21,272 bases of DNA from a bacterium (lineage in GTDB: Bacteria; T1Sed10-126): contig PWOD01000115.1 of the NCBI GenBank assembly GCA_003557545.1, positions 1 through 21,272 of the forward strand, given 5' to 3'. Under the pieces are notes generated by a model. It made no database searches. It was given only the letters and a program-made list of their open reading frames with translations, and was not told the DNA's origin. A program made the translations under genes and the position numbers. Each line of letters begins with the position of its first letter. The stretch's first letter is position 1. This document shows, piece after piece, positions 245-18,597 of the stretch.

Positions 245-763
245 ATGCATAAAAAATCCCTGCCTTCTGGTAGACTGTTGTTAATTTTTACTGTTTTTTC
301 TCTTATCATACTGGGGACAATGGTTATCCATTCTCCAGCCAGTGCCACAGCATCATATCTCGACCGGGACGGCTTTTATTTTGGTATCAACTACCCGGGA
401 GTATCAGCCGGATATCAATTTGACGATTTCGGAGCTGAAATGAGGGTTTTTGGTAGCTCCGACATTTTGATTTATGGTCTGCGAGGACGACACAACGTCC
501 ATCGCATGGATCCAGAAAATTCTAACATAGACCTGATTTATTATGGGATTGATATTTTTTACATTGATCATGAAGGGACAATTACCGAGGGCGACGGTTA
601 CATGGTTGGTCTTTTCGGCGGCATTCAGACCTTTTTTGCTGACGGTTTTTCACTGAACCTTGACCTGGGTCCCTATCATATTGCTCTGGATGACGACATT
701 TCCGGGGTTGACAGCAGCGGACTTCACTTTGTGCTGAACGCGGGGGTTGGTATCCATTTCTAA
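245..763 (+). CDS. Small exported protein, likely outer-membrane beta-barrel
   Basis: The 172-aa product starts with basic residues and a hydrophobic stretch (about 11-33) ending near S-A-T-A, a plausible signal peptide. The mature part of about 135 residues has alternating strand patterns (GFYFGINYPGVSAGYQF) and ends in H-F, the aromatic C-terminal residue typical of outer-membrane barrels; the size would suit about eight strands. The ATG follows AAGGAG with 8 bases of spacing. It is a clear paralogue of the protein at 16499-16987: shared motifs include FYxGxNYPGxSAGY, ITEGDG and LGPY, and both end in HF. Both genes sit directly before a protein with the FGPIxAVESE head, so the barrel may anchor or export that partner (inference). 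I do not recognise a named family. Confidence 0.8.
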   Translation: MHKKSLPSGRLLLIFTVFSLIILGTMVIHSPASATASYLDRDGFYFGINYPGVSAGYQFDDFGAEMRVFGSSDILIYGLRGRHNVHRMDPENSNIDLIYYGIDIFYIDHEGTITEGDGYMVGLFGGIQTFFADGFSLNLDLGPYHIALDDDISGVDSSGLHFVLNAGVGIHF

Positions 764-2771
764 TCAAAAAACTCACCCGGCAAACAAGATATTAATCACA
801 GGGCTATGCTGTTTTCTGATACTCGTGACAGGATTAATCTTCATCAACTTACTGGAGCTTCACGCCTTTAGTTTTGGCCCAATTAGTGCGGTTGAATCGG
901 AACAGGACGACCTAGAATCGGCGGCTAACAAACACTGGGTAGAACGCTGCGGATCCTGTGAAAATCAGATAGAAGCACAAGCAGCTGGAATCCCCAGCCG
1001 GGTTATCGACTACTGGAACTCCAACCCCGGCCAATCTCCCCTCACCTACCGGGGACCGGACCAGGATGGTTTTGTAACTACCGCTTCACATCTTGCCGAC
1101 GATCTCGCCGCTGGAATTAATCAAATTAGATTTGGCACGAGCATTGATGCTCCTGACACGGTTTTTACCATTACAGACGATCTAACCATCTATGGGGACG
1201 GCCACAGCCTGACTGCTGAAAAACTGGAGATAGATGGTTCGGCAGTCGAGGTCAAGATTAATCAACTGATTTTAAACAATCTTACTCTCACGACGATGGG
1301 CAGCAGCCAGGTAACCCTGGAAGATGGTCAGACTACCGATCTGGAAGTTGACTGGACCTCGTGGGTTTCACTAATAAACAACCCTGTTATTAATTCCCGA
1401 TTTTATGAATCGAGTGTGGTTGAAGGGGCAGAAAATATTCAACAGGCTCTAATAAACTCTCCGGGAGTCGAACTGGACCGGTTCAATCGTAACCGTATTG
1501 ACCCGGGTTCATCATACAGCCCGGTGATTACTGTGGAGCTATTTGAGCTTGAAATTGAGATCAGTCCACATGAAAATGCGGGGACTATTGAACTGAACGG
1601 CCAGCGCCTGGACCCGCTCCCGTACCTGCTGGATCTGGCCGAAGGTGAAACATTAGCAGTGGTCGCCAGCTCACTGAATGATTATCAGTTTGACAGATGG
1701 GAGCTTAACGGCAACAACCTGAGTTCTGACCCCGAATTAAGCTTTACTATGCCGGGGGCTGATACACAGCTAACCGCACATTTTGTTTTCTCACTCCCAC
1801 CGATGGGACCGCCGGACGGACTGGAAGGGGATGGTCTAAGTGATATGGACGGTAATCAGTACCAAACAGTCTGGCTTAACGGACTGGAATGGATGGCGGA
1901 AAATCTCCGGACACGTTGGTACAGCGATGGGGATATGATTGCGACTGATTTTATGACCGACACCGACTGGCGCGAAGCAACCGAAGGCGGATATGCTCTC
2001 TATCCCCACGAGGAGATTGATGGACTGGATTCGCCCCGGCAAGTAGCCGAAGCTTACGGGCGACTTTATAACTGGAAAGCAGTCGACGATCCACGGGGTC
2101 TCTGTCCGGTCGGATGGAAAGTTCCGACAGAGACTGATTGGATCAATCTGGTTGACCATATGGCCGACGAACACAATGAAATAACCCAGCAGAATATCGG
2201 GAGCTACCTGCGCTCCTGCCGTCAGATTAACTCACCCCTGGGAGGACAATGTAACACTGACATACATCCACGGTGGAATCACCAGTTCGACGGTTTTCAT
2301 GGAAATGATCAGTTCGGTTTTAGTGCCCTACCCGGGGGTATGCGACATCAGTATGGGGGATTTAATGATATTGGAACATGGGGACGCTGGTGGTCCTCAA
2401 CAACGGAAAATACAAACCCTGAAAACGCTCATATATTCGGGCTTAGCAACTTCCACCCGGAATCGGGACCAGAAATTGATCAATACTACATCAAAACATT
2501 TGGTCTGTCAGTTCGCTGTGTCCGAGATATATATCCCGGACAGAACGAGGTCACGTTAACCATTAAAACTAGCGGGATTGGTAATATAACGCCATCAGTG
2601 GGCACCCACGTTTTTCCCCAGGGAGAAACTATTAACCTGGCCGCTGAGCAATCTGATCCTAGCTGGCTCTTCATCGAATGGGAGGGTGCCGTTGACGACA
2701 ACAGTTCTGCTGAAACAACAATCACCCTCCATGAAGATAGGGTCGTCAAAGCAATATTTGCGGCCCTGTAG
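747..2771 (+). CDS. FGPI-head surface protein with FISUMP domain (674 aa)
   Basis: Residues 14-37 form a hydrophobic anchor, followed by the head: FGPI at 43-46, AVESE, ANKHW near 60-64, a CxxC pair (68, 71) and IPSRV near 82. Residues about 100-260 look like a parallel beta-helix (TASHL, IDAP, TIYGDGHSL). A Flg_new/InlB-type repeat follows (about 266-347), then a FISUMP domain (365-594, TIGR02145 type, with EWMAENLR, LYNW, FGFSALPGG and a final SVRCVRD), then a second repeat to the end. FISUMP domains are common in Bacteroidota and Fibrobacter surface proteins; their function is not settled. The start is a TTG that overlaps the barrel gene by 17 bases. It is chosen because it gives the same anchor length as the paralogues and no ATG precedes the anchor; ATT or another rare start is possible. 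The protein probably faces the periplasm or cell exterior. Confidence 0.85.
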   Translation: MVSISNQKTHPANKILITGLCCFLILVTGLIFINLLELHAFSFGPISAVESEQDDLESAANKHWVERCGSCENQIEAQAAGIPSRVIDYWNSNPGQSPLTYRGPDQDGFVTTASHLADDLAAGINQIRFGTSIDAPDTVFTITDDLTIYGDGHSLTAEKLEIDGSAVEVKINQLILNNLTLTTMGSSQVTLEDGQTTDLEVDWTSWVSLINNPVINSRFYESSVVEGAENIQQALINSPGVELDRFNRNRIDPGSSYSPVITVELFELEIEISPHENAGTIELNGQRLDPLPYLLDLAEGETLAVVASSLNDYQFDRWELNGNNLSSDPELSFTMPGADTQLTAHFVFSLPPMGPPDGLEGDGLSDMDGNQYQTVWLNGLEWMAENLRTRWYSDGDMIATDFMTDTDWREATEGGYALYPHEEIDGLDSPRQVAEAYGRLYNWKAVDDPRGLCPVGWKVPTETDWINLVDHMADEHNEITQQNIGSYLRSCRQINSPLGGQCNTDIHPRWNHQFDGFHGNDQFGFSALPGGMRHQYGGFNDIGTWGRWWSSTTENTNPENAHIFGLSNFHPESGPEIDQYYIKTFGLSVRCVRDIYPGQNEVTLTIKTSGIGNITPSVGTHVFPQGETINLAAEQSDPSWLFIEWEGAVDDNSSAETTITLHEDRVVKAIFAAL

Positions 2772-2797
2772 GCCAGTTTAGAAAATAGGCTACAGGG
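2764..2797 (+). other. Hairpin spanning the stop codon of the first surface protein
   Basis: Bases 2764-2774 (CCCTGTAGGCC) pair with 2788-2797 (GGCTACAGGG): ten base pairs with one bulged G. The stop codon TAG (2769-2771) lies in the left arm. No run of T follows, so it is not a standard intrinsic terminator. It could slow 3' decay or partly separate expression of the next gene. Confidence 0.45.
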
Positions 2798-2850
2798 ATA
2801 ATAGCAAAATTGCATCATTACATCCGAAAGTACAACAGGAACTGATAAAC

Positions 2851-4860
2851 ATGGTTAAAAGACAACAAACAGCGACCTACATCATTTTCACAATCTTCAT
2901 CCTTACTCTGTCTGGAGTCAACCCGGTTATAAACGGAGCCATAGACACAAAACTCTATGCTTTAAGTTTTGGACCAATTGAGGCAGTGGAATCAGAACAA
3001 GAAGAGTTAGAAACAACAGCTAACCGGTACTGGATAATAAAATGTCAGGACTGCACCGATCCTGATGAGGCGTTCCTGGCTGGTATCCCTCGTCGAGTTA
3101 TTAATTACTGGAACTCAAATCCCGGAAAATCACCGCTCAGTTACCGGGGCCCCGATGAGATCGGAATTGTCACCAGCGCTGCCCATCTTGAAGAAGATTT
3201 GGCAAATGGTATTGACCCGATCCGATTAGCCGCCGATATAGACGCTCCGACCAGCAGCTTCACAATCTCAGAAGATATCACCATTTATGGCAAAGGCCAT
3301 TCTTTGATCGCCGAAGAATTAATCATCGACGGGCCTGAATCTGTAACAATTAGAGAGCTTGAATTTAACAAACTAATTATCAACTTTATGACCGGTGTCG
3401 ACCAAAGAATAGAGCTTCATAACGGTTTGCTGAACCAGTTGATTAATAATAGCAAAGTTTTCCCAATCATTGCTTTATATAACAACCCCACACAACAGGC
3501 CAAGCTCGAAGAAGATGCTTATGTAATGGGCGCTGATAATCTGGCTCAGGTTAAAATAAATTCTAAGGGAATTACACTTGACCGCTTCAATCCCGACAGA
3601 ATCGATCCCGCTTCCAGTGAAAAAGTCGACAGAATTTTGGATAAAATGTCGGAGCTTACAATCAATATCAATCCACCCGAAAAAGTGGCCACTGTCAAAA
3701 TCAATGGAACTCCAACCGAACAACTGCCACACAATGATTTTATTCGCGGCGAAATACTTCAATTGTCAGCAATTGTCGGGCGTGACTATGAGTTTTTAGA
3801 ATGGACCACTAATTCCAACTTTTTAAGTTTTAACTCCCAGTTTGACCTACTAATGCCCGATACAAACTACCAAGTAATAGCTAATTTTACTGAAAAATCG
3901 GACTCCGATAAACCGAGCGACGGCAGCTCCGGAAACCGGCTGACTGATGCCAGTGGGAACTATTATGAAACCGTCTGGATTGGCGGTAAGGAATGGATGA
4001 CAAAAAATCTCCGGGCCAGTCATTACAACGACAGAACAGAGATCAGTTCCGACTTTCCAACCAACTCCGACTGGATAGGGGCAACCGAAGGTGGCTATTC
4101 AATCTATCCCCACGACAACATAGATAATCTGCAAACAGATGCTGAAGTCGTGGCAGCCTATGGAAAACTCTACAACTGGTATGCAGTAAATGATACCCGG
4201 GGGCTCTGTCCCGCGGGCTGGTCAGTCCCCAACGCCACAGAATGGCATCGACTGATCAAATATTTAACGGATGATTACCAGGAAATAACAACAGATAATT
4301 TCGATTTATATTTGCGTTCACGTCGGCAGGTCGGATCGCCACTGGGAGATGCTTATGATACTGTGGTGCACCCCCGATGGGACAATCCACCACGCCCCAA
4401 CTGGTATGGCAACAACCAGTTCGATTTTAGCGCTCTACCAGGTGGCCTGCGGGACGATAATAATTTCCGAAGATTAGGCAGTTACGGTTACTGGTGGTCT
4501 TCCTCGGCCAAACAACCCGATTCTCAGGAGGCCTGGTATTTGGGGATGACTAACTTTAACACCCATCCGGTCGATGAAGCTTTTCCGCAATATAACGAAC
4601 TGTCAGTCCGCTGTGTTCGCAATAGCTATCCCGCTCCCGGAGAAGTCAGTTTGACAATCAAAGTACGGGGGCCGGGAACAGTCGAGCCAGCCGTAGGAAC
4701 ACATATTTTCAGCCAGGGACAGGAGTTAACTGTAGAAGCCACAGCTGCTGGTTCGGCAGTTTTTCTCAACTGGGAGGGCGAGGTTGCTGACAGCAGTTCC
4801 AGTTCAACAACCATTCAGCTAAATGAGGATCAGGTAATTACTGCCAATTTTGCTAATTGA
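2851..4860 (+). CDS. FGPI-head surface protein with FISUMP domain (669 aa)
   Basis: A full-length paralogue of the preceding gene with the same domain order: hydrophobic segment (about 8-30), head with FGPI at 40-43 and CxxC at 65 and 68, IPRRV near 79-83, beta-helix-like part, Flg_new-type repeat (about 260-345), FISUMP (about 360-590) and a C-terminal repeat. The FISUMP domain keeps EWMTKNLR, LYNWYAV, GLCPAGW, SALPGG and SVRCVR. It lacks both cysteines of the SCRQ...SPLGGxC motif found in its three sister domains; the corresponding segment reads SRRQVGSPLGDAYD. The gap to the previous gene is 79 bases; AGGA about 10 bases before the ATG is a modest ribosome site. It probably shares a transcript with its neighbours. 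Confidence 0.85.
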   Translation: MVKRQQTATYIIFTIFILTLSGVNPVINGAIDTKLYALSFGPIEAVESEQEELETTANRYWIIKCQDCTDPDEAFLAGIPRRVINYWNSNPGKSPLSYRGPDEIGIVTSAAHLEEDLANGIDPIRLAADIDAPTSSFTISEDITIYGKGHSLIAEELIIDGPESVTIRELEFNKLIINFMTGVDQRIELHNGLLNQLINNSKVFPIIALYNNPTQQAKLEEDAYVMGADNLAQVKINSKGITLDRFNPDRIDPASSEKVDRILDKMSELTININPPEKVATVKINGTPTEQLPHNDFIRGEILQLSAIVGRDYEFLEWTTNSNFLSFNSQFDLLMPDTNYQVIANFTEKSDSDKPSDGSSGNRLTDASGNYYETVWIGGKEWMTKNLRASHYNDRTEISSDFPTNSDWIGATEGGYSIYPHDNIDNLQTDAEVVAAYGKLYNWYAVNDTRGLCPAGWSVPNATEWHRLIKYLTDDYQEITTDNFDLYLRSRRQVGSPLGDAYDTVVHPRWDNPPRPNWYGNNQFDFSALPGGLRDDNNFRRLGSYGYWWSSSAKQPDSQEAWYLGMTNFNTHPVDEAFPQYNELSVRCVRNSYPAPGEVSLTIKVRGPGTVEPAVGTHIFSQGQELTVEATAAGSAVFLNWEGEVADSSSSSTTIQLNEDQVITANFAN

Positions 4861-4955
4861 TACCTGAAAAATACTCTATACACCCGGTTAATTTCAAATA
4901 GTTACCTAAATTTTCGATGTAGTTAATTGAATTATATTCAAGGGAGCTGGTCACC

Positions 4956-7900
4956 ATGTGGGGTTTAAATAAACAGGCTTTTATGCGGGTTTTATATGGA
5001 GTTTTGCTGGGTGTTCTTGTGATTTTTACCAGTCTCAATGCCGCTGAACAGTGGAACCTTTATGTTTTCAGCTTTGGCCCGATAAATGCTGTTGAATCGG
5101 AGCAGGATGAGTTAGAATCGGCAGCTAATAAACACTGGGTAGAGCGTTGCTCCAACTGTGAGAATCAGTTAGAAGCCCAAAACAGAAATATTCCGCGCCG
5201 GGTCATTAGCCACTGGAACTCTAATCCGACAAAAGCTCCAGTGAATTACCGTGGCCCCCAACAAGAAGGCACAGTAAGTACAGCTTCACATCTGACAGAT
5301 GATCTGCAGGCCGAACTGTCCACAATCGATTTTGCGGCTAATATCGACTCACCGGGAGAAACCTTCACTATCAGCCACAACCTTACACTAAAAGGTAATG
5401 GATACAGCCTTACCGGCGCAATCCTTAAGATCGATGGTTCAGTCAGCCAGGTTACAATCGAAAATCTCCAACTTGATAATTTAATAATATCCAGTATGGG
5501 TACAAGCAATCTTACCCTGCAGGGTGGTTCAGTAAATAACCTTACTTTAAATCATGATATTACACTGGAAATAATTAACTGTCAGGTAAACCAGGCGATA
5601 TTTAATACCGCTTCAACTGTTACAGGAGCCAACCTGCTTGAGCAAGCTGCAGTTAATAGCAGCGCAGTTCAATTTGATCGGTTTAATCGCAGCCGGCTGG
5701 CTCCCGGTTCAACTGAACAGCCCCAGATAGTTGACGAACTATTTGAACTTAAAATCCAGATAAACAACCCTGATGCCGGTGAAATTAGCAGCAATAATAC
5801 AACAATAACAGAGTTCCCCGCAATTTTTGAACTGGCCGAACTGGAGAGTCTCCAACTCCTGGCGATTCCCGAAGAAGAGTTCGATTTTTCGGGTTGGTAT
5901 GATGCAGCTGATCTCCTGGTAGAAAGCGCTCCCACCTTTCCCTTTATAATGGGCGATACCGATTATCAACTCTTTGCCAATTTTGATTTTGCTACAGGAA
6001 GTTACCGCATAGCCGGAGCCGGGGTAACCGATATTGATGGTAATTACTACTCGACCGTAATTATTGACGGTGTCGAATGGATGGCAGAAAACCTCCGAAC
6101 TACGCGTTACCAGGACGGCACGTGGATCATCATCGGTCCCAGCGGCACGAACTGGGACAACAATACCAGCGGGGCCGGGGTTATCTATCCCCACGATGAA
6201 GTTGCCGGAATAAACTCCTCAGCAGCAATGGTTGACGCCTACGGCAAACTGTACAACTGGTATGCCGTAGACAATCAAAATGGATTATGTCCAGTCGGCT
6301 GGCAGGTACCCTCCGATCAGGATTGGAGCGACCTGGAAACTTATATTACCACCAATTATTCTGAAATACTCGAGAATAATGCTGCCAATTATTTAATCTC
6401 CTGCCGCCAGGTCGACTCGCCGCTGGGCGGAGACTGCGACACTACCGAACACCCTCGCTGGGACAACGATGACGGGCTTTCTGGTTTAGATGAGTTCGGA
6501 CTGTCAATTTTACCGGCCGGAACCCGGGCGGCCTGGTCAGGCGGAGCAAATACGTTTACCAGTCTTGGACACAACACACGCTTCTTTAGTGCAACCGAAG
6601 ATAGCGAAAACCTCTCGCTGGCATGGACCCGAAGTTTTGCAGGCAATCGAATCCATCGGGCCAGATACAACAAAGCCATCGGGGCCTCTGTACGCTGTAT
6701 TAACCAAAGTCCAGCCCTGCAACTGACTACGGCTGAAGCTACCGGCTACTCATCAGGCTTGCTGGAAGCGACGGTTCTTGGCGAAGGCAATTCGCCAGTT
6801 AGCGAACGTGGTTTTGTCTGGGGAACTTCCAGCGATCCAACCCTGACCAGCAACAGCGGCATGGTTGCTCGGGGCTCCGGGACAGGAAAATTTAGTTACG
6901 AACCAACCGGACTTGATGCATCAACCGTTTACTACGTGCGAGCCTATGCGATAAACAGCAGTGGTACCTCCTATTCCCACCAACTTTCCTTCGAAACCGA
7001 CCGCGACCCAACTGTTCCGTTCAGCTTAGAGCTTGAAATTGAACCGGCAGGCAGCGGCCAGGTTCAGGGGGGCGGGAACTATCTGGCCGGTGAAACAGTT
7101 CAGCTAACTGCTTCTCCAGATACCGATTTCCTGTTTAAAGCCTGGCTGGATTCCGAAAGCGATACCGTCAGCCTGGACAGTCAGTTCACCTATACAATGC
7201 CGGCGACCAACAGCACTCTAACGGCAGTTTTTGAAGCGGTCCCCGAGATGGTCCTGGTTAACCCGGTAATCTGGTTGGGCGGGGATACAGTGCTGGGAAC
7301 CGGTTACCATCCGGCCAACTCAACGATTGAACTGATTGCCGTTCCACTCCCCGGTTATAAATTTTCTCAATGGAGTGACGGCAGCGGTCACCTGAGTTAC
7401 GACACAACCTATTTTTTCACTGTCCCCGAACCCCCACAAAGCCCTTTCCTCCGGGCTGAATTTGAAGCTATCACCTACAGCCTCACACTGCAATCAGAAC
7501 CTGCCGCCGTAGGCACAACCAGCGGTGCGGGGGACTATCCAGCCGGCGAGCAGGTCACTCTAACCGCTACCCCGGACACCGGATATAAATTTGTTAACTG
7601 GACCGATCCACAACAAAATATCATCAGCACCGACAGCTCCTTTCAATACACCACCAGCGATACCGATCTAACCCTGACGGCAAATTTTGCTCCGATTCAG
7701 TATGTCCTGACACCAACGACAGATCAGAAATTTGGTGGCACAGTATCTGATACCGGCAGCTATATAGCCGGCGAAACTGTTCAGTTAACTGCAGTACCGT
7801 CTGACACCTACCTGTTTACCAACTGGACGGATGAAACCGGCACGATCATTAGTAGCGAACCGCAGTTTAACTTTACCATGCCCCCCTCTGACTTTATAAT

Positions 7901-8684
7901 TGTTGCCAATTTTAAAGTTAAGATCTATCCTGGGGCGGGGGTTACTGATATTGACGGCAACTCCTACTCAACGGTGATTATTGGTGAACAGGAATGGATG
8001 GCCGAAAATCTCCGCACAACCCAATCAGCCGATGGAGACGGAATTCCCGGCGGACTGACTAACCAACAGTGGGAAGAGACAAATGATTACGCCTATGCCA
8101 TCTATGATCATACCGACACCCGGGCGGAAGGAATTGACTCGGAGGCAGAAATGGTTGAGGCCTACGGTAAACTGTACAACTGGTATGCGGTAGACAATCT
8201 GAACCTCTGCCCGGCCGGCTGGTCTGTCCCCTCCGATACCGACTTCCAGGAGCTTCTCAATTTTCTTGAAGTCAAACACGATGTCGACAACCAGTCAACA
8301 CAATCTTCCTCACGCAGTCACCTGCCACGCCAGGGTGAAGCACTTAAATCCTGCCGAACGGTGGATTCGCCACTGGGTGGTGACTGTGCGACCGACGAAC
8401 ACCCCCGGTGGGATTATTTTGAAACTCCTGCCGGTGATCAACGCTACGGAATAGATATGTTCGGTTTTGCTGGATTACCGGCTGGATGGCGAAAACGCAC
8501 AGGTATCGGAGAACCACATGATTTTCAAATGCTGGGTGAAAGGGCTTTATTCTGGACCCGGACCAAAGTGGACCATACCTTCCGCAGGATCTATCAACTA
8601 AGAACAGGGCAGTTTGCTGATACTATATCAAGAGCCAGTGATTTAGATACAACCGGTGCCTCCGTGCGCTGTTTAAAGGATTAA
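4956..8684 (+). CDS. Large FGPI-head surface protein with two FISUMP domains (1242 aa)
   Basis: The largest member of the cluster. In order it has a hydrophobic segment (about 10-30), head with FGPI at 40-43 and CxxC at 65 and 68, beta-helix-like part (to about 255), a Flg_new-type repeat (to about 345), and FISUMP domain 1 (about 354-586). A fibronectin-like domain of about 100 residues follows (RGFVWGTSSDPT, STVYYVRAYAINSSGTSYS), then four tandem Flg_new-type repeats (about 686-988) and FISUMP domain 2 (about 990-1242), which ends the protein. AGGGAG 9 bases before the ATG supports the start. Compared with the two upstream paralogues it looks extended at the C-terminus by duplication of the repeat and FISUMP parts. 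Its role is unknown; adhesion or a surface-layer-like display is a reasonable guess from the repeats. Confidence 0.87.
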   Translation: MWGLNKQAFMRVLYGVLLGVLVIFTSLNAAEQWNLYVFSFGPINAVESEQDELESAANKHWVERCSNCENQLEAQNRNIPRRVISHWNSNPTKAPVNYRGPQQEGTVSTASHLTDDLQAELSTIDFAANIDSPGETFTISHNLTLKGNGYSLTGAILKIDGSVSQVTIENLQLDNLIISSMGTSNLTLQGGSVNNLTLNHDITLEIINCQVNQAIFNTASTVTGANLLEQAAVNSSAVQFDRFNRSRLAPGSTEQPQIVDELFELKIQINNPDAGEISSNNTTITEFPAIFELAELESLQLLAIPEEEFDFSGWYDAADLLVESAPTFPFIMGDTDYQLFANFDFATGSYRIAGAGVTDIDGNYYSTVIIDGVEWMAENLRTTRYQDGTWIIIGPSGTNWDNNTSGAGVIYPHDEVAGINSSAAMVDAYGKLYNWYAVDNQNGLCPVGWQVPSDQDWSDLETYITTNYSEILENNAANYLISCRQVDSPLGGDCDTTEHPRWDNDDGLSGLDEFGLSILPAGTRAAWSGGANTFTSLGHNTRFFSATEDSENLSLAWTRSFAGNRIHRARYNKAIGASVRCINQSPALQLTTAEATGYSSGLLEATVLGEGNSPVSERGFVWGTSSDPTLTSNSGMVARGSGTGKFSYEPTGLDASTVYYVRAYAINSSGTSYSHQLSFETDRDPTVPFSLELEIEPAGSGQVQGGGNYLAGETVQLTASPDTDFLFKAWLDSESDTVSLDSQFTYTMPATNSTLTAVFEAVPEMVLVNPVIWLGGDTVLGTGYHPANSTIELIAVPLPGYKFSQWSDGSGHLSYDTTYFFTVPEPPQSPFLRAEFEAITYSLTLQSEPAAVGTTSGAGDYPAGEQVTLTATPDTGYKFVNWTDPQQNIISTDSSFQYTTSDTDLTLTANFAPIQYVLTPTTDQKFGGTVSDTGSYIAGETVQLTAVPSDTYLFTNWTDETGTIISSEPQFNFTMPPSDFIIVANFKVKIYPGAGVTDIDGNSYSTVIIGEQEWMAENLRTTQSADGDGIPGGLTNQQWEETNDYAYAIYDHTDTRAEGIDSEAEMVEAYGKLYNWYAVDNLNLCPAGWSVPSDTDFQELLNFLEVKHDVDNQSTQSSSRSHLPRQGEALKSCRTVDSPLGGDCATDEHPRWDYFETPAGDQRYGIDMFGFAGLPAGWRKRTGIGEPHDFQMLGERALFWTRTKVDHTFRRIYQLRTGQFADTISRASDLDTTGASVRCLKD
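7011..7920 (+). repeat. Four tandem Flg_new/InlB-type protein repeats
   Basis: Four copies of about 75 residues each lie inside the 1242-aa protein. Each has roughly G-x-Y-x-A-G-E-x-V-x-L-T-A-x-P, then Y-x-F-x-x-W, then F-T-M-P and ends in x-A-x-F. The second copy is the most divergent: it has lost the AGE box and reads TVPEPP in place of TMP. Confidence 0.75.
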
Positions 8685-8886: not shown

Positions 8887-9396
8887 CTAAAATCGGCCAC
8901 CAATTCGACCGCTGATTGCCACCCCATAGATAAACTCATCTTCGCGATCATCATCAACCAGCTCATGTAAAATATATTTACCGGTTAATCCGAGAGTAAA
9001 ATCACCCATATCCAGGGTCAATGCTGCCTCGCCAAAGGGAGCATTACTATTACTCCGGGAAGCAAACCGATAACCGGCTCCAGCCGACGGCCGAACAGTC
9101 ATCTGCCTGTCAAGTCGAATCAACCTACTAAAACTCAAGGAACTATCCAACCCATAAAAATCATCCGCCTCTGATTCTTCCCTGAAAAAAGCCGCATTAC
9201 GCCAGCGGGTCCAGTTGTTAAAATCCGTATTCACCGCAGCATTCAGCTCAACAAATGAACCGGCCTGGGAAGTCCCCGCCGAAGCACCCAGATCATACGA
9301 AAAACGAGGGTAAGACTCTACCTGCGGCACAGGTAAAATAGTCCAAACCACTGCCAGAAAAGCAATACAGATGTAACATCTGAATCGGAGATGCAT
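8887..9396 (-). CDS. Small exported beta-barrel-like protein
   Basis: The 169-aa product begins with a basic and hydrophobic signal peptide ending near Q-V-E-S. The rest shows alternating strand patterns (SYDLGASAGTSQ, VRPSAGAGYRF, FIYGVAISGRIGGRF) and ends in phenylalanine, as outer-membrane barrels do. The ATG at 9396 is preferred because AAAGGA lies 9 bases upstream; a TTG at 9426 would add ten residues (MGSCDKGCVI) that spoil the signal peptide. It is not clearly related to the two small barrels at 245 and 16499. It lies 184 bases downstream of the LolA-like gene on the same strand and could share its promoter. No family recognised. Confidence 0.7.
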   Translation of the reverse strand: MHLRFRCYICIAFLAVVWTILPVPQVESYPRFSYDLGASAGTSQAGSFVELNAAVNTDFNNWTRWRNAAFFREESEADDFYGLDSSLSFSRLIRLDRQMTVRPSAGAGYRFASRSNSNAPFGEAALTLDMGDFTLGLTGKYILHELVDDDREDEFIYGVAISGRIGGRF

Positions 9397-9580
9397 AATA
9401 ACACATCCTTTATCACAGCTACCCAACAGGTTTTCCAGTCGGTACCCGTGAAGATTTACTAACTAAAAAATCTTTTTACAATCAATCCGGAGTGTTTTAG
9501 CCTGTCCGAATTTTTTAAATTTCCCAAACTGTACAGATCAATCATCCGGGTCCATCCAACACCAGATTAGTGCACAGGGA

Positions 9581-10444: not shown

Positions 10445-10501
10445 AACTAACGCCTCCCTGGATAATTAAGTAATCAAACAAATTTTTACTATACTAATTA
10501 A

Positions 10502-11371: not shown

Positions 11372-11657
11372 GGCTCACAACCCTCTTTCGGTAAATAGAT
11401 TGATCCAAAACAAACAACCTGCTGACCAACAGTGAATAAGATTTAAATTATACGGGTAGTTGAGTTGTCTGAAAAGTCCTACGTGTACTACATTTCACCA
11501 GTTCACAAAGATTCAGTTTCATAAAAAAATGATTACTGCTTATTTCTTAGCTTGATTGTCACTGAATTTAAGAGCCCGCTTGACCAGTTGCTTGTTCGGC
11601 GATAAAAAATATCGTAAACTTTTTCAATATCCAAAAACCAATCCAGGGAGACTATTT
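11372..11657. other. Intergenic stretch between divergent genes
   Basis: About 290 bases between the SDR gene and the antiporter leader peptide. Apart from the candidate promoter listed at 11580-11608 I see no RNA gene, strong hairpin or recognisable riboswitch. It is AT-rich and may also hold the SDR promoter, which I could not place. Confidence 0.5.
11580..11608 (+). promoter_or_regulatory. Candidate promoter for the antiporter operon
   Basis: TTGACC at 11580-11585 and TAAAAA at 11603-11608 are 17 bases apart. The -35 box is near consensus and the -10 box is weak. Transcription would begin near 11615, about 40 bases before the leader peptide start. Confidence 0.35.
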
Positions 11658-11741
11658 ATGCAACTATTTTGTATTTTTCAACCCCAAAAATTAAACCTCA
11701 TGAACATACCGGCTCACAGCCCAGATAACACAGTTAAATGA
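11658..11741 (+). CDS. 27-aa leader peptide upstream of the antiporter
   Basis: A short reading frame beginning MQLFCIFQ and ending NTVK. It has a strong Shine-Dalgarno site, AGGGAG at 11645-11650, 7 bases before the ATG. Its TGA stop overlaps the antiporter ATG in ATGA (11738-11741). The antiporter itself has no visible ribosome site, so translational coupling through this leader is likely. The peptide has no export signal or known motif, and it may matter only for coupling. The same frame stays open further upstream (to a TTG near 11556), but only this ATG has a ribosome site. Confidence 0.55.
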   Translation: MQLFCIFQPQKLNLMNIPAHSPDNTVK

Positions 11742-12751
11742 ACCAGCTGTTTTACTGGACACTGTTTGGGCTACTAGCCTCTGTCATCTATCATTCCGGA
11801 ACAAAATTAACCTACCTTGCTGATAGCCTGGGTGAAAAATGGCAGGTAAATAAAAGTTTTGTCGGGATCATCCTGCTTTCCACGGTAACCAGTCTTCCTG
11901 AACTATCAACCAGTCTGGCCTCTGTTCTACTAACAGAGTCGGCTGATCTAGCTACAGGCAACCTGCTGGGCAGCAATATCTTCAACCTGGCGATCATCCC
12001 CCTGCTTGCTTTGCTCGGTCGAAAAGCTTATCTACACCGAGCAACCCGGGGCCAATTTCTCATCAACTTCCTTGTATTCCTCCTCTATTTTATAGTGATC
12101 GGCGGACTAATCAGGGATCAAAATATCCTGGTTTCGCCGCTCGGAATTTCCCTGGGGGTCTCTAGCTTTATCCTGCTGGCAGGTTACATGGGAGGACTAT
12201 ATTTACTATTCAAAAAGCGCGCAATTGAAACCACAGAGCTTCAACTGCCAGAACCACTCCCCGCCCAACAGGTCAGGGGTTTAATCACCACCGCTCACTT
12301 TCTATTTTATGCAACAGTGGTAATCCTGGCTGGAATTAGTCTGTCTATGGTTGGCTCAGAGTTGGCTGAACTAACCGGACTGGGGCAGACTTTTCTGGGA
12401 ACTCTTTTCTTGGCCTTCGCCACCAGTCTCCCGGAAATTGTTGTCTGTTGGGTAGCCATCAAACAGCTACAGGCAGTAGATCTTGCCCTGGGAAATATCT
12501 TCGGTAGCTGTCTGTTTAACCTGGCTCTCATACCCCTGATAGATCTGGCCTATCCGCACAGTCCAGTTTTGATGGCTGTTAGTTTCCCTAATTTTTTCTC
12601 AGCTGTTGGAGGGATAACGATGCTAACAATAGCGACCTATTCAATCCACTATCGGCAAAAACATCGAGGGACTTTCCCCTATCTTCCGGAACAGGCAGCA
12701 CTCCTGCTCATCTATTTTACGACACATCTTTTACTCTACATTTTTCGTTAG
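11738..12751 (+). CDS. Sodium/calcium exchanger family antiporter (CaCA, YrbG-like)
   Basis: A 337-aa membrane protein with the two inverted alpha-repeats of the Ca2+:cation antiporter superfamily. Alpha-1 is near 42-83 (TSLPELSTS, then GNLLGSNIFN) and alpha-2 near 222-265 (ATSLPEIVV, then GNIFGSCLFN). The paired acidic residues in the two SLPE motifs are those that bind Ca2+ in the family. About ten membrane segments are expected, a normal size for YrbG-type proteins. It probably expels Ca2+ (or a similar cation) in exchange for Na+ or H+ across the cytoplasmic membrane. The codon before the ATG is a stop in frame, so this is the earliest start, and it lacks its own Shine-Dalgarno site; see the leader peptide. 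It converges with the next gene with only 35 bases between. Confidence 0.92.
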   Translation: MNQLFYWTLFGLLASVIYHSGTKLTYLADSLGEKWQVNKSFVGIILLSTVTSLPELSTSLASVLLTESADLATGNLLGSNIFNLAIIPLLALLGRKAYLHRATRGQFLINFLVFLLYFIVIGGLIRDQNILVSPLGISLGVSSFILLAGYMGGLYLLFKKRAIETTELQLPEPLPAQQVRGLITTAHFLFYATVVILAGISLSMVGSELAELTGLGQTFLGTLFLAFATSLPEIVVCWVAIKQLQAVDLALGNIFGSCLFNLALIPLIDLAYPHSPVLMAVSFPNFFSAVGGITMLTIATYSIHYRQKHRGTFPYLPEQAALLLIYFTTHLLLYIFR

Positions 12752-12786
12752 ACGGGTTATCCAGTGTTTCCATAATAACAGGTTAT

Positions 12787-13206
12787 TTAAGCCGGTTGCT
12801 GAGGGTCTGATTCCTCTGCTTCCAGTGGCTGAGGGGCATCGCCAGCTGCTGTTTTCCATTCATCATATTGGTCAAGATCACTATTAATCGACTGTAAAAC
12901 TAATCCCAGCAAAATCGCCTTGTTCAACCTGCCAATCCGGGGAAACTCACGGGGTACTAAATCTCGGGGATTGGCCAGATAAACTATTGAAAAAGCTACC
13001 ATCAAAACGGTTTTAAGAGGAACTTTCCGATACTCACCTGATTTCCAGTCAATCAAAAAACTTCCGATTAATTCAAGTTTTTCAACAAACTGATGCAATC
13101 TATCGTCATTACGAGCAGTTTCAACCGCCTGTTCCACCTTATACAAAGACTTTTCAATCTCCTCAACACGCAAGCCTTCAACAAGTTTTTCAACAATCGA
13201 AAACAT
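12787..13206 (-). CDS. DUF1232 / YkvA-like small membrane protein
   Basis: The 139-aa product has a helical N-terminal half and a YkvA-type (DUF1232, PF06803) core at about 63-117: VPLKTVLMVAFSIVYLANP, then RDLVPREFPRIGRLNKA and a DLDQYDEW end. Family members usually read DLIPDxIPxxGxxDD; here several acidic positions have become Arg, Asn or Lys, so this copy is divergent. The function of the family is unknown. AAAGGAGG 10 bases before the ATG gives a firm start. It lies 62 bases downstream of the next gene on the same strand and is probably cotranscribed with it. The C-terminus is acidic and Pro/Gln-rich. Confidence 0.75.
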   Translation of the reverse strand: MFSIVEKLVEGLRVEEIEKSLYKVEQAVETARNDDRLHQFVEKLELIGSFLIDWKSGEYRKVPLKTVLMVAFSIVYLANPRDLVPREFPRIGRLNKAILLGLVLQSINSDLDQYDEWKTAAGDAPQPLEAEESDPQQPA

Positions 13207-13268
13207 TTTCTGGCAGCCTCCTTTAACAAAGCTAAGTTTTACGATTAAAGATGATTATACTATTTAAC

Positions 13269-13925
13269 TTAATTGTTTTTTGAAACAACATCCTCGTCAT
13301 TTTCACCGGTTGATACCGGATTAGATTGTGATCTAAATCCCAGTTTAACTACAAATTTTTGTGGCTCAACCGTCAATTTTTTAACCTTAATTAAAGCATC
13401 TAAAGAATAACCCAAAAATCTATATTGCCAGATTTTTCCAAACCTGGTATTGGATAAATCAACCCGATATCCCTGTTCAATGTTGCTGATCTCCGGGCGA
13501 GATTTGATCACCTGTTCAACCGGATCAACTCCCAGTTTCCCTGTTAGATTTAAAATTTGAGCCAACAGCCGGGATAAAATCCTGTTTCCACCATATCTGA
13601 CCGGTTCCTCAACAATCAATTCCAGCGTCTGTTGAGTATTATTAAATCTTATTTCACCCGGCCGCAAAAACATTTTGATCTCGAGAGGAATAGAAAATTT
13701 TCTAATCCACAAAATAACCACTGCACGCTTCATTTCAGGAATCACGGTTATTTTTTCAATTAGCCCATCTTTCTTAACTATTTTATCCTTTAAACGTCGA
13801 TTAAGCGATTCAGCCGAAACAGTAAATTCTCCAGTTCTCACCTGCTGAATAAAACTGCTTAACAGTCCTTCATCAGAATTTTTATCATCTTTAAACAGCA
13901 TCCCTTTTAAAAAATCTTTCAACAT
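13269..13925 (-). CDS. Unrecognised 218-aa protein, possibly lipid-binding
   Basis: There is no signal peptide or clear membrane segment. After a charged N-terminus (MLKDFLKGMLFKDDKNSDEG) the middle alternates strands (EKITVIPEMKRAVVILWI, LEIKMFLRPGEIRFNN, LELIVEEPVRYGG), followed by a helix (RILSRLLAQILNLTG) and more strands (YRVDLSN, ALIKVKKLTVEPQKFVVKLGF). The layout resembles DUF2993/LmeA-type or other tubular lipid-binding folds, but I cannot confirm this. The C-terminal tail is polar and low in complexity. AAGGAG 11 bases upstream of the ATG supports the start. It probably forms an operon with the DUF1232 gene downstream, which suggests a shared membrane-related role. Confidence 0.65.
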   Translation of the reverse strand: MLKDFLKGMLFKDDKNSDEGLLSSFIQQVRTGEFTVSAESLNRRLKDKIVKKDGLIEKITVIPEMKRAVVILWIRKFSIPLEIKMFLRPGEIRFNNTQQTLELIVEEPVRYGGNRILSRLLAQILNLTGKLGVDPVEQVIKSRPEISNIEQGYRVDLSNTRFGKIWQYRFLGYSLDALIKVKKLTVEPQKFVVKLGFRSQSNPVSTGENDEDVVSKNN

Positions 13926-14077
13926 TACTGGACCAGCTCCTTGATATCAATTTTTTAAGTGCTCGATATCCATATTCCAGCAAGCTCTACCTGTCTAACA
14001 ATTTTAGCCTTCACCATAAAAAAACTCCACCCTACCATCCCAATCATAATTTGTCCCTTAAATCTGTCTGACAATGT

Positions 14078-14794
14078 TCAATTATGGTGACATAAATCAG
14101 CCTCGGTCAAGTTGGCGGTAAACTCATCCGGCGGTCCGGAAAGTTTAATCTGTCCGGCTTCCAATAAATAAATCGTATCGAAAAAATCGAGGAAATTAAT
14201 TTCATTGGTTGACATCACCAGAGCTGCCTGAGATTCTTTCTGATAATCCTTCAACAGCTTCAGAGCTCGCTTTTTACCGGACTGATCGAGCTCACTCAGT
14301 GGCTCATCCAATACCAATAAAGCTGGTTGATGAACCAGGGCTGCAGCCAGTGCAACCTTTTTTTTCTGACCGCCGGATAGATAATGGATCAGTTTGTCCG
14401 ACTCTTGCTGAAGATCAAGCTGGTACAAAAGTTCTTGCACCCGGCGTTTTATTGTTGATCTATCAAAACCAAAATTTCTTGCTGTAAAAGCAATCTCATC
14501 AAATAATGTAGGACCGATAAGCTGATCCTCTATATTCTGCAGAACAAACCCGATATGGCGCCCCAGGTCCGCCTTCCCGGGCGACTGCCCCATAACCCTT
14601 ACACTCCCCTTGCTGGGACTAAGAAACCCCAGCAGATGTTTCAAAAGAGTACTTTTTCCTGAGCCGTTCCGACCGATAACTGCAACAGCCTCACCTCTAT
14701 TTACCACAAAGTCCAGCCCACAAAACTCAACTGAAGTACTATCCGGGTAGGTATGCTTAAGACATTCGACTTCAACCAGTTTTTTTAAATCCAT
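14078..14794 (-). CDS. ECF transporter ATPase (CbiO/NikO-type)
   Basis: A 238-aa ABC ATPase that powers the adjacent nickel/cobalt importer from the cytoplasmic side. Walker A GRNGSGKS is at 41-48, the Q-loop at Gln86 followed by the ECF-typical segment EDQLIGPTLFDEIAF, signature LSGGQ at 139-143, Walker B LLVLDE at 159-164 with catalytic Glu164, and D-loop SELD. The H-loop, where family members have STH, reads STN with Asn197 (codon AAT). The switch histidine is therefore missing. All other motifs are intact, so the enzyme may still work, perhaps more slowly. It overlaps the T-component gene by 10 bases and ends the three-gene operon. Only one ATPase is present, as expected for a dedicated CbiMQO system. 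Confidence 0.92.
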   Translation of the reverse strand: MDLKKLVEVECLKHTYPDSTSVEFCGLDFVVNRGEAVAVIGRNGSGKSTLLKHLLGFLSPSKGSVRVMGQSPGKADLGRHIGFVLQNIEDQLIGPTLFDEIAFTARNFGFDRSTIKRRVQELLYQLDLQQESDKLIHYLSGGQKKKVALAAALVHQPALLVLDEPLSELDQSGKKRALKLLKDYQKESQAALVMSTNEINFLDFFDTIYLLEAGQIKLSGPPDEFTANLTEADLCHHN

Positions 14795-15474
14795 AAAAGA
14801 CCGCTGATGAGAAACAAGATTCCAACAATAAAGATAAGATCAGTAAATTGAAACCGTTTGTTGGAGGTAATAAAGATTTGTCCCGTAAATCCCCGCAGTG
14901 CAACCGTCTGATAGATAGTTTCAGACCGATCAATGAAATCAACAAAGAAAAACCCGGCCAGTTTGGCAAGGTTCATAGGCAAGCGCTTCCAACACATTCC
15001 GCCGCGTAATTTCATAATTCTTAATTTTTTCTCAACAGTACTTAACAGGAGAAAAAAGAATCTGTAAGAAAACAGCAAAAAACTCACCAGACCCTTAGAA
15101 ATACCAGAAAATATCGAGAGAAACTCGGGAAATGGGGTGGTGGTGAAGAAAAAAATTGAAAACAGCGCAGCAGTTACAGCGCGGGCCAGAGTTAAATATG
15201 GAAGCAGCCCACTGCCTAGCTGTGCCAGCGCAAAGATCAAAGCAAAAAAAGCCGGATAAGCCGCCCATTTTAACGCCTGTTTTAATGGAATGCCGGCAAT
15301 AAACAGCAGTGTCAAGGCAACTATTAACAGAATACCAACCCGATATAGTGAACTAGTAAAAACAGTAGTTAAGAGGAGCAACAGATAGCCGATAAACTTG
15401 CCGATAACATGACGCCTGTGAAAAAACGAACAACCACTGCTAGCATAAAAATCGATCAGGTAAATAGAACTCAT
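14785..15474 (-). CDS. ECF transporter T component (CbiQ/NikQ-type)
   Basis: The 229-aa hydrophobic protein has about five to six membrane segments. In the cytoplasmic region it carries the two coupling motifs of T components, KLRGG (155-159) and ALRGF (192-196), whose arginines contact the ATPases. It overlaps the CbiM-like gene by four bases (ATGA) and the ATPase gene by ten, so the three are translationally coupled. It links the metal-binding component to the ATPase. Assignment to the metal (CbiQ) branch rests mainly on the neighbouring CbiM-type gene. Confidence 0.88.
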   Translation of the reverse strand: MSSIYLIDFYASSGCSFFHRRHVIGKFIGYLLLLLTTVFTSSLYRVGILLIVALTLLFIAGIPLKQALKWAAYPAFFALIFALAQLGSGLLPYLTLARAVTAALFSIFFFTTTPFPEFLSIFSGISKGLVSFLLFSYRFFFLLLSTVEKKLRIMKLRGGMCWKRLPMNLAKLAGFFFVDFIDRSETIYQTVALRGFTGQIFITSNKRFQFTDLIFIVGILFLISGLLWI

Positions 15475-16223
15475 CTAATCAACATTCGCGGTCTAACTTT
15501 TACTATGAAGCCCGCTACTCCCGCAGCAATCAGACTTTCGAAGATAGCCACCAGTAAAAAAAGTGGTCCGCTCAACCCAACAAAAACAGTTAGATTGAAA
15601 GTTTCATCAGATGCGGGTGATTGACCGTGATCATGGTGACCATCAATCTCTGTTGGCTCAATTTCTTCAGCATGATGATGGATGGCGTGTTCAGATTCTT
15701 CCGCATGATGATGGTGATGATGGGACGGAGCAAATAGTTGCATCGGTCGCTGATGTGGCAAAGCAGCCAGCAAAACCAAAAAACCAAAGGAAATAATAAG
15801 CCCCACAAAAACAGCTGCTGCAGCTCGCAGACTCACCTGATGAAAAATCGGCCGCAGCAAATAGCTGAACAGATAATAGGCCGCCGCCGCTTGAACCCAT
15901 AATAACAGGGTATTGAGCCCCACAATAGTTGCACCACCATGCCCAAAACCGGCCAGCACAAGATTTACCACAAAAGCCACATAAAAACTCCAGATAGGAC
16001 CAAGAATGATTCCGACCAGTGACAGTAGATTAAGGTGAACAGGTAGCCCCAACGGGACCGACATTACAATCAGGCTGAAAGCTGTAAACATAGCTGCCAG
16101 CGCAATTTTTGAGCCCCCCCGCCGTAAAAAATTAGAAAACAGTCCCAGTAATACCAGGATCACAGCATAGCCGCCACCCCACAACCAGAACGGTAATACT
16201 CCATCCGGTATATGTATATGCAT
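15471..16223 (-). CDS. ECF substrate component for nickel/cobalt (CbiM/NikM-type) with His-rich loop
   Basis: The 250-aa membrane protein begins MHIHIPDG. In NikM/CbiM the N-terminal amine, His2 and a later His bind the metal; His2 and His63 (in the PVHL segment) are in place. The family motif FGHGG...GLN lies at 93-104. Between membrane segments a loop at about 168-199 holds 13 histidines, including six in a row, as seen in several nickel-handling proteins. The C-terminal segment (SGPLFLLVAIFESLIAAGVAGFI) is a membrane helix. No separate CbiN or NikL/NikN gene is visible nearby; the loop and last helix may stand in for it (inference). The substrate is Ni2+ or Co2+; I cannot choose. GGAG about 9 bases upstream of the ATG supports the start. 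Confidence 0.88.
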   Translation of the reverse strand: MHIHIPDGVLPFWLWGGGYAVILVLLGLFSNFLRRGGSKIALAAMFTAFSLIVMSVPLGLPVHLNLLSLVGIILGPIWSFYVAFVVNLVLAGFGHGGATIVGLNTLLLWVQAAAAYYLFSYLLRPIFHQVSLRAAAAVFVGLIISFGFLVLLAALPHQRPMQLFAPSHHHHHHAEESEHAIHHHAEEIEPTEIDGHHDHGQSPASDETFNLTVFVGLSGPLFLLVAIFESLIAAGVAGFIVKVRPRMLIR

Positions 16224-16295
16224 TTAAATCAGCTCCGATTTTCTAAAATCCATAACTAATTAATTTTTTGTTGTTAAATCAATCCAGCAAAGTAG

Positions 16296-16324
16296 TTGAT
16301 TCAAGAAAAAATAATACCTTTAAT
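16296..16324 (+). promoter_or_regulatory. Candidate promoter for the second barrel/FGPI pair
   Basis: TTGATT (16296-16301) and TTTAAT (16319-16324) are 17 bases apart. The region is AT-rich, so chance matches are likely. The start would lie just before or within the inverted repeat at 16331-16356. Confidence 0.3.
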
Positions 16325-16330
16325 CGTGAT

Positions 16331-16356
16331 AATTAAAAAGCGTTAACTTTTTAATT
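16331..16356. promoter_or_regulatory. Perfect AT-rich inverted repeat between divergent genes
   Basis: The arms AATTAAAAAG (16331-16340) and CTTTTTAATT (16347-16356) are perfect complements around the loop CGTTAA. It lies between the metal-importer operon and the second barrel gene, about 108 bases from the former, and could be an operator for a dimeric regulator or a weak bidirectional terminator. It does not match the NikR consensus as I know it. The rest of 16224-16498 is AT-rich; a small hairpin at 16427-16441 (CCTGG/CCAGG) has no T-run. Confidence 0.45.
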
Positions 16357-16498
16357 TGCTAACTTTTAACTTAATTTTACCATCTAAAAGGTCGATTCAA
16401 TAATAGACAGATTTAGAAATTTTTACCTGGAAAAACCAGGGGCAGTTATTATAAATTTTCATGACTCTATTTAATTTTTAATTAGGGACTGATCAGCG

Positions 16499-16987
16499 GT
16501 GTCCGGAATGATCATAAAATTATTTAAGCTAGTAATTTTCACTCTAGTGCTATCTATAATTATCGCCCCACACGGACAGGCTGATGTTCGAGAGGCTTTC
16601 TACCTGGGCTTAAACTACCCCGGTTTATCAGCAGGCTATCGTAGCGGTAAAACCGCCTATGAACTACGCCTGTTTTTTGCCAGCAAAACACAGATCTACG
16701 GCGGCCGGGTACGACGTGACTTTTACCAGTTTGAAACGGCGGATTTTGAACAAAACTTTATCTATCTGGGGCTGGATGGTTTTTACACTCAGTTTGAAGG
16801 AGAAATTACTGAAGGTGATGGATTTATGTTAGGTCTGGTTGGTGGTCTGGAAACCCGTTTAACCGATGGGTTTTCTGTTAATTTTGACCTCGGTCCCTAC
16901 TATCTGACCATCGACGACGACTATTCCGGTCTTAACAGCAGCTCTTTACACTACATCCTTAACTTTGGAATAAACTATCATTTTTAA
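16499..16987 (+). CDS. Small exported protein, likely outer-membrane beta-barrel (paralogue)
   Basis: This 162-aa paralogue of the protein at 245-763 has a signal peptide (about 4-28, ending HGQA) and then the shared body: FYLGLNYPGLSAGY, ELRLFFASKTQIYGGRVRRD, EITEGDGFMLGLVGGLET, FSVNFDLGPYYLTIDDD, SSSLHYILNFGINYHF. The terminal phenylalanine fits an outer-membrane barrel. The start is a GTG at 16499 (AGGGA about 11 bases before) or an ATG three codons later at 16508; the ATG has no clear ribosome site. It is followed after 20 bases by an FGPI-head protein, the same order as in the first cluster, which supports a functional pair. Confidence 0.8.
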   Translation: MSGMIIKLFKLVIFTLVLSIIIAPHGQADVREAFYLGLNYPGLSAGYRSGKTAYELRLFFASKTQIYGGRVRRDFYQFETADFEQNFIYLGLDGFYTQFEGEITEGDGFMLGLVGGLETRLTDGFSVNFDLGPYYLTIDDDYSGLNSSSLHYILNFGINYHF

Positions 16988-17007
16988 CAGTAGAGGAAGC
17001 ATAACCA

Positions 17008-18597
17008 ATGGATAAAACAAGACGGTTAAAAAACTTACTAAAGCCAATTGCTGACCCTTTCACTATAGTCCAACTACTGATTATTATTGGCTTGGTCAGT
17101 ACCAGCCTGCTGCTGATTATCTCAACTCCAGTCCTGAGTAGTTTTCATTTTGGCCCGATCGATGCCGTTGAATCAGAGGTTAACCAGTTAGACGATATGG
17201 CTAACAAACATTGGACAGAGCTTTTTGTTGAAAAGTGCGAATATGACCCTGATCCTGAAAATTGTGCTGGTTCGGTAGGTATACCCCGCCATGTTTGGCG
17301 GCACTGGTTTGCTGACAATCGAAAACGTCAATCACTCGATCTGGATGGCGATTTTTATATCAACCTGGTGTTCGATCAAGAACCAATGGCCGGCAATGGT
17401 GGTGGAGTTTATGGCGGAGCGCTGGAACTTACAGATTTTTCTGGTGATGGTGTGGCAGACCTTGCCGTCACAGGTATGGACGGCAATAAAAACCCCCGGC
17501 TAATAATTTATTTGAATGATGGCAATGGAAATTTTATAACAACTGAAGAACCACTGATTGGTGAAGGTCACGGTCTACAACAATCCGATTTTGCTGCTGC
17601 TGATTTTACCGGTGACAGTACCATTGATCTTGCCGTCGCCGGTAAAGATATAAATGAAAATCACCGCCTTATCATTCTCAGCCAAAACGGGGGGCAATTT
17701 TCTATTATTGAAGAGCCAATGATCAACAATAACGACGGAACCGGGGTCTGGACAGCCTCGCTTGACCATGGCGATATAACTGGCAATGGTGTCCCTAATC
17801 TCGTAGTTAGCGGACGAGATCAGGCCGACCAACCTCGGCTGCTAATCTACCACAAAGAACGACATTCCGATACTTTCGTCACCTATCAGGAACCGATGTT
17901 GGAAGATGGTAATGGCGTCTGGAACGGCTCGGTTCGACTCGCCAACTTCACTGAACGTTATCGAGATTTTTCAGGTGGTGCCTACATGGATCTGGCTGTT
18001 ACCGGGCGCGATGGTGGCGAAGAAGATGGTCGGCCTCGATTCAAACTATATGACAACCGACGAAATATCGGTTTTACTGAACTATCCACCCCGCTGAGTG
18101 ATACAGACGGACTCTGGGCCTCTTCTATTGATTTTGCTGATTTCACCCACAACGACCGACTTGATATGGCAATAAGTGGTCTTGATATTCATGATCAACC
18201 CCGACTTATCCTCTATAAAAACATCGGTAATGGACAGTTTGAATATCACAGCGAACCACTCAAAAATATAACAGACGGCCTGGCTGGTTCTGCTCTTGAA
18301 TTTGCTGACATGACCAACAATGGCAGCCCTGACCTGCTGGTCGCCGGACGTACCAAGGACTACAAACCAAAATTTTTCATATTTCTTAATGATGGAAACG
18401 GTAATTTCACCAAACATACACAACCACTTGCTGAAGACCCCGCGATCAACCTTCAGGGGTTCTGGTCACCCTCGATAGCAGTTGGTGATTACACCGGTAA
18501 TGGAAGATTGGACATGGCTATCAGCGGTAGTGAAACTGATCCCAGCCGGCTTCCCCCTGTTCCACGATTGCTGCTGTTTGAAAATCAACTTCCCTGA
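17008..18597 (+). CDS. FGPI-head protein with seven-repeat FG-GAP beta-propeller (529 aa)
   Basis: A basic N-terminus and hydrophobic anchor (about 20-42) are followed by the head seen in the FISUMP proteins: FGPI at 48-51, AVESE, ANKHW at 65-69, two cysteines (77 and 86, here CX8C instead of CxxC) and IPRHVW at 92-97. From about 118 to the end there are seven repeats of about 55-65 residues of FG-GAP/VCBS type, each with DFxGDGxxDLAVxG, a PRLxIY strand and often a DGNGNF turn. These are calcium-binding-like loops as in integrin alpha propellers. Seven repeats would close one propeller. Repeat 4 has an insertion (TERYRDFSGGAYMD). The ATG follows GAGGAAG at about 9 bases. It is probably exposed outside the cytoplasm and binds a partner or ligand; the function is unknown. 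Confidence 0.85.
   Translation: MDKTRRLKNLLKPIADPFTIVQLLIIIGLVSTSLLLIISTPVLSSFHFGPIDAVESEVNQLDDMANKHWTELFVEKCEYDPDPENCAGSVGIPRHVWRHWFADNRKRQSLDLDGDFYINLVFDQEPMAGNGGGVYGGALELTDFSGDGVADLAVTGMDGNKNPRLIIYLNDGNGNFITTEEPLIGEGHGLQQSDFAAADFTGDSTIDLAVAGKDINENHRLIILSQNGGQFSIIEEPMINNNDGTGVWTASLDHGDITGNGVPNLVVSGRDQADQPRLLIYHKERHSDTFVTYQEPMLEDGNGVWNGSVRLANFTERYRDFSGGAYMDLAVTGRDGGEEDGRPRFKLYDNRRNIGFTELSTPLSDTDGLWASSIDFADFTHNDRLDMAISGLDIHDQPRLILYKNIGNGQFEYHSEPLKNITDGLAGSALEFADMTNNGSPDLLVAGRTKDYKPKFFIFLNDGNGNFTKHTQPLAEDPAINLQGFWSPSIAVGDYTGNGRLDMAISGSETDPSRLPPVPRLLLFENQLP
17362..18594 (+). repeat. Seven FG-GAP/VCBS-type protein repeats
   Basis: Seven units share DLAVxGxD followed by PRLxIY. The DxxGDG-type loop is intact in units 1 and 2 and degenerate in others (for example TGNG, THND, TNNG), so calcium binding may not be equal in all blades. 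Confidence 0.8.

Follow-up and report, generated by a model that had tools for sequence, protein, structure and literature searches.

A small predicted outer-membrane barrel paired with exported proteins that share a short N-terminal motif in several bacterial phyla

How non-lipidated proteins are held at, or delivered to, the cell surface is largely open for diderm bacteria outside Proteobacteria and Bacteroidota. In two-partner secretion, TpsB consists of a 16-stranded barrel with two POTRA domains, and its partner TpsA carries a β-helical TPS domain (PMC5422565). Slam proteins combine TPRs with a barrel of about 14 strands, and their substrates are mostly lipoproteins (PMC7857515). Intimin has a wider barrel with the linker running through its lumen, all within one polypeptide (PMC13078405). 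For RcsF, an association between the N-terminal segment of the exported protein and an outer-membrane barrel was proposed (PMC4942254), and later work found that the OmpA barrel neither binds RcsF nor offers a channel (PMC7553776). Literature searches covering open-licence papers found no description of the pair reported here, in which the gene for a small barrel adjoins that for an exported protein with a short conserved motif at its mature N-terminus (referred to as the head).

The window analysed here, 21,272 bases long, is the entire contig C152 of a draft genome (2.15 Mb in 239 contigs, 92% complete), which belongs to GTDB phylum T1Sed10-126, a phylum from hypersaline soda-lake sediment with the proposed name Candidatus Busufiota (PMC11382960). 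This phylum is represented by two genomes, that of the window and that of a sister species, T1Sed10_126 (G001). A first-pass annotation of the window had described two paralogous small barrels, each directly before a gene for a protein with an FGPI head; this description holds, with the genes on the same strand. Barrel copy 1 (245–763, +; 172 aa) has a signal peptide and a mature barrel of about 136 aa, and is homologous to copy 2 (16499–16987, +; 162 aa), which was modelled and has eight predicted strands. The two are 44% identical over 160 aa and, by a genome-wide search, are the only barrel copies in this genome. Both begin with a hydrophobic N-terminus/signal peptide and end in a canonical C-terminal β-signal, NxGxxxHF (NFGINYHF and NAGVGIHF). 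Neither reaches the cut-off of the Pfam family OMP_b-brl (PF13505), copy 2 scoring 14.2 bits against 28.7 and copy 1 having no match; among 14 members of the barrel family, three match this profile, with a best E of 2e-5.

Head 1 (747–2771, +) overlaps the stop of barrel copy 1 by 17 bases, with a TTG start codon that is a guess, and consists of a signal peptide, FGPISAVESE at the mature N-terminus, InlB B-repeats and a FISUMP domain; its 24-residue head motif, AFSFGPISAVESEQDDLESAANKH, is encoded at 864–935 (+). Head 4 (17008–18597, +) starts 20 bases downstream of barrel copy 2 and carries a signal peptide, the FHFGPIDAVESEVNQL motif and an FG-GAP β-propeller. A model of head 4 (mean pLDDT 74) predicts a helix at mature residues 8–33 right after FGPI, followed by three short helices and the propeller. 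The barrel-paired heads of the window have a common layout of signal peptide, FGPIxAVESE, a helical stretch to near GIPxxVI..W and then the passenger, and their passengers differ as had been noted, FISUMP and InlB B-repeats in one and FG-GAP in the other.

Heads 2 (2851–4860, +; FISUMP) and 3 (4956–8684, +; two FISUMP domains and five InlB B-repeats) are tandem paralogues, neither with a barrel of its own. The window holds four heads and two barrels, so that heads without their own barrel do occur, and the earlier statement that no separate copy of either part lies in the window was mistaken. Among the window heads, the FISUMP domain (TIGR02145) is above cut-off in heads 1–3 only; its absence from the FG-GAP head makes it a passenger rather than the mark of the family. 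A fifth head of this genome, with an LRR passenger, lies on a 3.4 kb contig (C14), where no adjacent barrel is visible. There (L006 2318–3366), the LRR head is preceded by a lipoprotein-like gene at the place where the sister genome has a barrel, and also upstream, where the contig ends, is the end of a protein weakly similar (E 7e-5) to a FecR-domain protein of the sister genome (L013). Elsewhere in the window, a further predicted small outer-membrane protein outside the barrel family (8887–9426, −; weak Autotransporter β-domain match) is convergent with head 3, and 14078–16223 (−) holds genes of a cobalt/nickel ECF-type transporter (CbiM, CbiQ and CbiO-like, by eye), the CbiM-like protein having a His-rich stretch, HHHHHH.

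The sister species has three barrels and three heads, which form three barrel-then-head pairs out of three, each on the same strand, with FG-GAP, GLUG, and PQQ propeller plus LRR as the respective passengers. Two of these pairs adjoin a second conserved gene pair (L013 9789–13909; L014 7759–12276), made up of a predicted outer-membrane protein of about 550 aa (weak SlpA_C/porin match) and a FecR-domain protein of 800–870 aa, the copies being mutually homologous. In the same genome (L012 12340–19808), a PorV-like protein adjoins a 2153-aa repeat protein whose C-terminus resembles, by eye, a FlgD/T9SS sorting domain; the heads have no such C-terminus.

A contig scan with back-translated barrel patterns matched the sister genome only, so a profile search was needed for distant barrels. 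A search of 386 genomes with a profile of five barrels turned up distant members in six more, and a 14-row profile confirmed these and added others. Barrels are present in at least four phyla, counting that of the window; this lower bound takes the phylum of G183 as two genomes and that of G106 as seven, neither set including other lineages, with families f198 and f116 falling in none of the G183, G106 or window phyla. With these distant members, the idea of an oddity confined to one phylum was rejected. No barrel relative was found in viral contigs, and the barrel profile had no match among PDB sequences. At three loci (L054 243–1274, L055 7568–8599 and L051 6627–7547) the barrel has an extra N-terminal, periplasmic-looking domain, i.e. 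it is fused to other modules. Weak barrel matches in G080, G152, G208, G221 and G367:C12 (E 1e-3 to 1e-6) were taken as other small outer-membrane proteins, no head adjoining those inspected (L089–L091).

Strong barrel matches occupy 24 places in ten genomes, 21 intact and three broken by stops or insertions. A head gene directly adjoins 20 of the 21 intact barrels, mostly overlapping or within about 30 bases, and the lone exception (L044) has surroundings that match those of L045 and L082, minus the head. Two of the broken barrels (G386:C24 and G183:C74) are without a head and one (G116:C59) has kept it. The broken barrels without a head (L087, about 3179–4632, and L088, 6392–6967), one interrupted near AAA-ATPase genes and one by a stop codon, look as if barrel and head had been lost together. 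The head precedes the barrel at four loci (L048, L053, L085 and L086, with L053, cut by a contig end, assigned by synteny with L085), and the pairing is therefore independent of one gene order.

What the heads share across phyla is the motif alone, within the first 20 or so mature residues: a hydrophobic strand, a glycine and an amphipathic helix, hG[LIPM]xxAVxxxVxxL. The neighbours of the distant barrels, inspected without a head search, are exported proteins starting, for example, with GLHFGIISAVKDKVKEI, KFGIGLPSVIKERVEDL, GFHLGLSSAVKTKVQEL, GFFVGIVDAFRDKISKM and KLTVGLPNAVKTFKSQM, and these mature starts align gap-free with SFHFGPIDAVESEVNQL of the window. By a simple (−3,−1) cleavage rule, 22 of 25 heads have the conserved glycine between mature +2 and +7, a common position being +5. 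Following the motif are passengers of many kinds, including FISUMP, FG-GAP, LRR, GLUG, PQQ/YVTN/SBBP propellers, Ig-like and GH26-like domains; since the motif is shared while passengers are swapped, it is the motif with which the barrel keeps company. To avoid circularity, a held-out test used a position matrix derived from the eight heads of the window's phylum only and scored the first 80 residues of 186 ORFs at 19 distant loci. The top 13 ORFs were all barrel-adjacent, each with the motif right after the signal peptide (P about 6e-12), and scores above 8 bits were reached by 13 of 31 barrel-adjacent ORFs compared to 1 of 155 non-adjacent ones.

A 24-position head profile run against 385 genomes gave matches at E<1e-3 in eight genomes only, all of them barrel-bearing, and 22 of these 23 matches adjoin a barrel (in one case judged by synteny, as the contig breaks between them). 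Most heads were already in the profile and many had been found via their barrels before it was built, so this search is not fully independent; its informative part is the absence of heads from about 376 barrel-less genomes and the near absence of unpaired copies. At G116:C183, a head has no barrel nearby, and its repeats carry on, in a different frame, in the following ORF. A weak match in G039 (E 0.003, one stop codon) and the remaining tail (E>0.004) were taken as chance. The check called for by the first-pass annotation, searching for barrels and heads separately and counting how often they adjoin, comes out in favour of the pair from both sides: the pairing is real, extends beyond the window and is far above chance.

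The model of mature barrel copy 2, built from a five-sequence alignment, has eight strands (pLDDT 86), and Foldseek and VIA-align group it with OmpW, OprF, NspA and OmpA (Z 13.5–15.6), the best solved matches being OprF (Z 15.6), NspA (15.1) and OmpA (14.7). The most conserved positions of the barrel include E29, R31, R44, D/E67, E92, D104 and N129, together with an outer YPG turn and a GxG turn. Judging from strand alternation, these seven charged or polar residues would face inward; such a conserved core suggests a closed lumen, as in OmpA, and makes a transport pore unlikely.

We propose a two-part envelope module of neighbouring genes, the products of which would both leave the cytoplasm with Sec signal peptides. 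The first part, a small eight-stranded barrel of the OmpA/OprF fold, would insert into the outer membrane; the second, an exported protein, would present its docking motif at the mature N-terminus and carry, after it, one of a wide range of repeat or β-rich passengers. The inserted barrel would then hold the head motif and so anchor the passenger with neither a lipid nor a covalent bond, and one barrel could also serve, in trans, heads that lack a barrel of their own. Docking of the motif on the barrel, with the barrel as the passenger's anchor in the outer membrane, is the reading we consider most likely, at about even odds; contact and anchoring are both what we infer. The passenger would most likely face the outside, which the types of passenger and the conservation of the outer loops weakly suggest. 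We put forward somewhat more tentatively that this is an undescribed docking system of several phyla, in which a mature N-terminal motif of about 20 residues could act as a modular address tag, coupling any passenger to a dedicated eight-stranded barrel.

The barrel might instead dock the motif on the periplasmic side, the passengers remaining periplasmic and tethered to the outer membrane, which we consider unlikely. No crossing of the outer membrane would be needed, the motif does follow the signal peptide directly, at the start of the mature protein, and PQQ/YVTN propellers are found in periplasmic proteins too. However, the passengers include LRR, GLUG, InlB-repeat and Ig-like domains, which are found more typically in secreted proteins or those of the surface. 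In addition, no part of the barrel is less conserved than its periplasmic turns. Small outer-membrane proteins usually have outer loops that are less conserved than their inner turns; here the outer loops are short and score a mean conservation of 0.50 compared to 0.35 for the periplasmic turns (P=0.07 for whole halves), a hint that the outer face has a partner.

Less probable still is that barrel and head are envelope genes expressed together and passed on as one operon, with no physical partnership. Contact between the products is indeed only deduced, and most pairs are tight and on the same strand, as in any operon, but the upkeep of the mature N-terminal motif alone while passengers are swapped across phyla speaks against this reading, as does the reversed gene order at the four loci named above. 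The sequence divergence of the two parts also argues against it. Over 20 pairs, barrel distances correlate with distances between the 24-residue head motifs (r=0.82), and when partners were shuffled within genomes only, which removes organism effects, the real pairing was matched or beaten in 0.145% of 20,000 shuffles (P=0.0015); as co-duplication of linked pairs would also yield co-divergence, this result speaks for a pairing of long standing and not for contact in itself. The partner relation first suggested for the window has come through its adjacency test, and barrel and head also diverge together within genomes.

Very unlikely, in our judgement, is a split inverse autotransporter or two-partner exporter, in which the barrel itself would pass the head protein out. 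The order of barrel, helix and passenger mirrors that of intimin, whose linker crosses the lumen (PMC13078405), and the two-gene layout is like that of two-partner secretion. However, the barrel has eight predicted strands rather than 12 or 16, a lumen that the conserved inward residues would fill and, at 162–172 aa, no POTRA-sized domain, and barrels of the OmpA type leave no open channel through which a linker could run (PMC7553776). As modelled, the barrel would probably not serve as the passenger's pore. The first-pass annotation had offered export, anchoring or guidance as roles for the barrel; anchoring or guidance fits best, and export through the barrel is disfavoured by its OmpA-like eight strands and charged interior. 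Least probable of all is a barrel that acts as assembly helper or chaperone, accompanying the head for a time instead of anchoring it, since sharing in trans, by which this reading would explain the heads without their own barrel (2851–4860 and 4956–8684), is equally possible for an anchor, and to our knowledge no small eight-stranded barrel is an established chaperone of this sort.

If the docking proposal is true, the short N-terminal tag and its cognate small barrel would form a simple and portable device, doing with protein what the lipoprotein anchor does with lipid. The attachment of diverse adhesin-like repeat proteins in little-studied phyla would then be explained, and surface proteins could be recognised from sequence.

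Compared to the described systems, the module has partial likenesses to several. Like TpsA and TpsB, head and barrel are encoded by adjacent genes and combine an outer-membrane barrel with a large exported protein whose N-terminal part would serve for recognition; the features of TpsB are missing from the barrels, which have no POTRA match, 162–172 aa and eight strands, and the TPS domain is also absent. As with Slam, an outer-membrane barrel gene adjoins the gene of a surface protein, here a putative one, but the barrels have no TPR match and eight strands, and no head has a cysteine at its mature start. RcsF resembles the heads in being an exported protein with an N-terminal segment and a proposed barrel association; unlike the heads, which have no lipobox cysteine after the signal peptide, it is lipidated. 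Inverse autotransporters likewise comprise a barrel, a linker and a C-terminal passenger with Ig-like domains, whereas barrel and passenger are here in separate genes at every locus examined.

The closest likeness in fold and size, as predicted, is to the N-terminal barrel of OmpA/OprF, NspA and OmpW (Z 13.5–15.6 over 113–129 residues), and the C-terminal aromatic β-signal and the signal peptide are shared with OmpA-type proteins as well. In contrast to those proteins, to which its identity is only 13–19%, this barrel has no Pfam assignment above cut-off and no OmpA C-terminal domain, adjoins a head gene, and has very short outer loops that are conserved, where those of the known proteins are long and variable. 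With a barrel of the predicted fold of small, OmpA-type outer-membrane proteins, the module falls under the broad known kind of outer-membrane barrels with a cognate exported partner.
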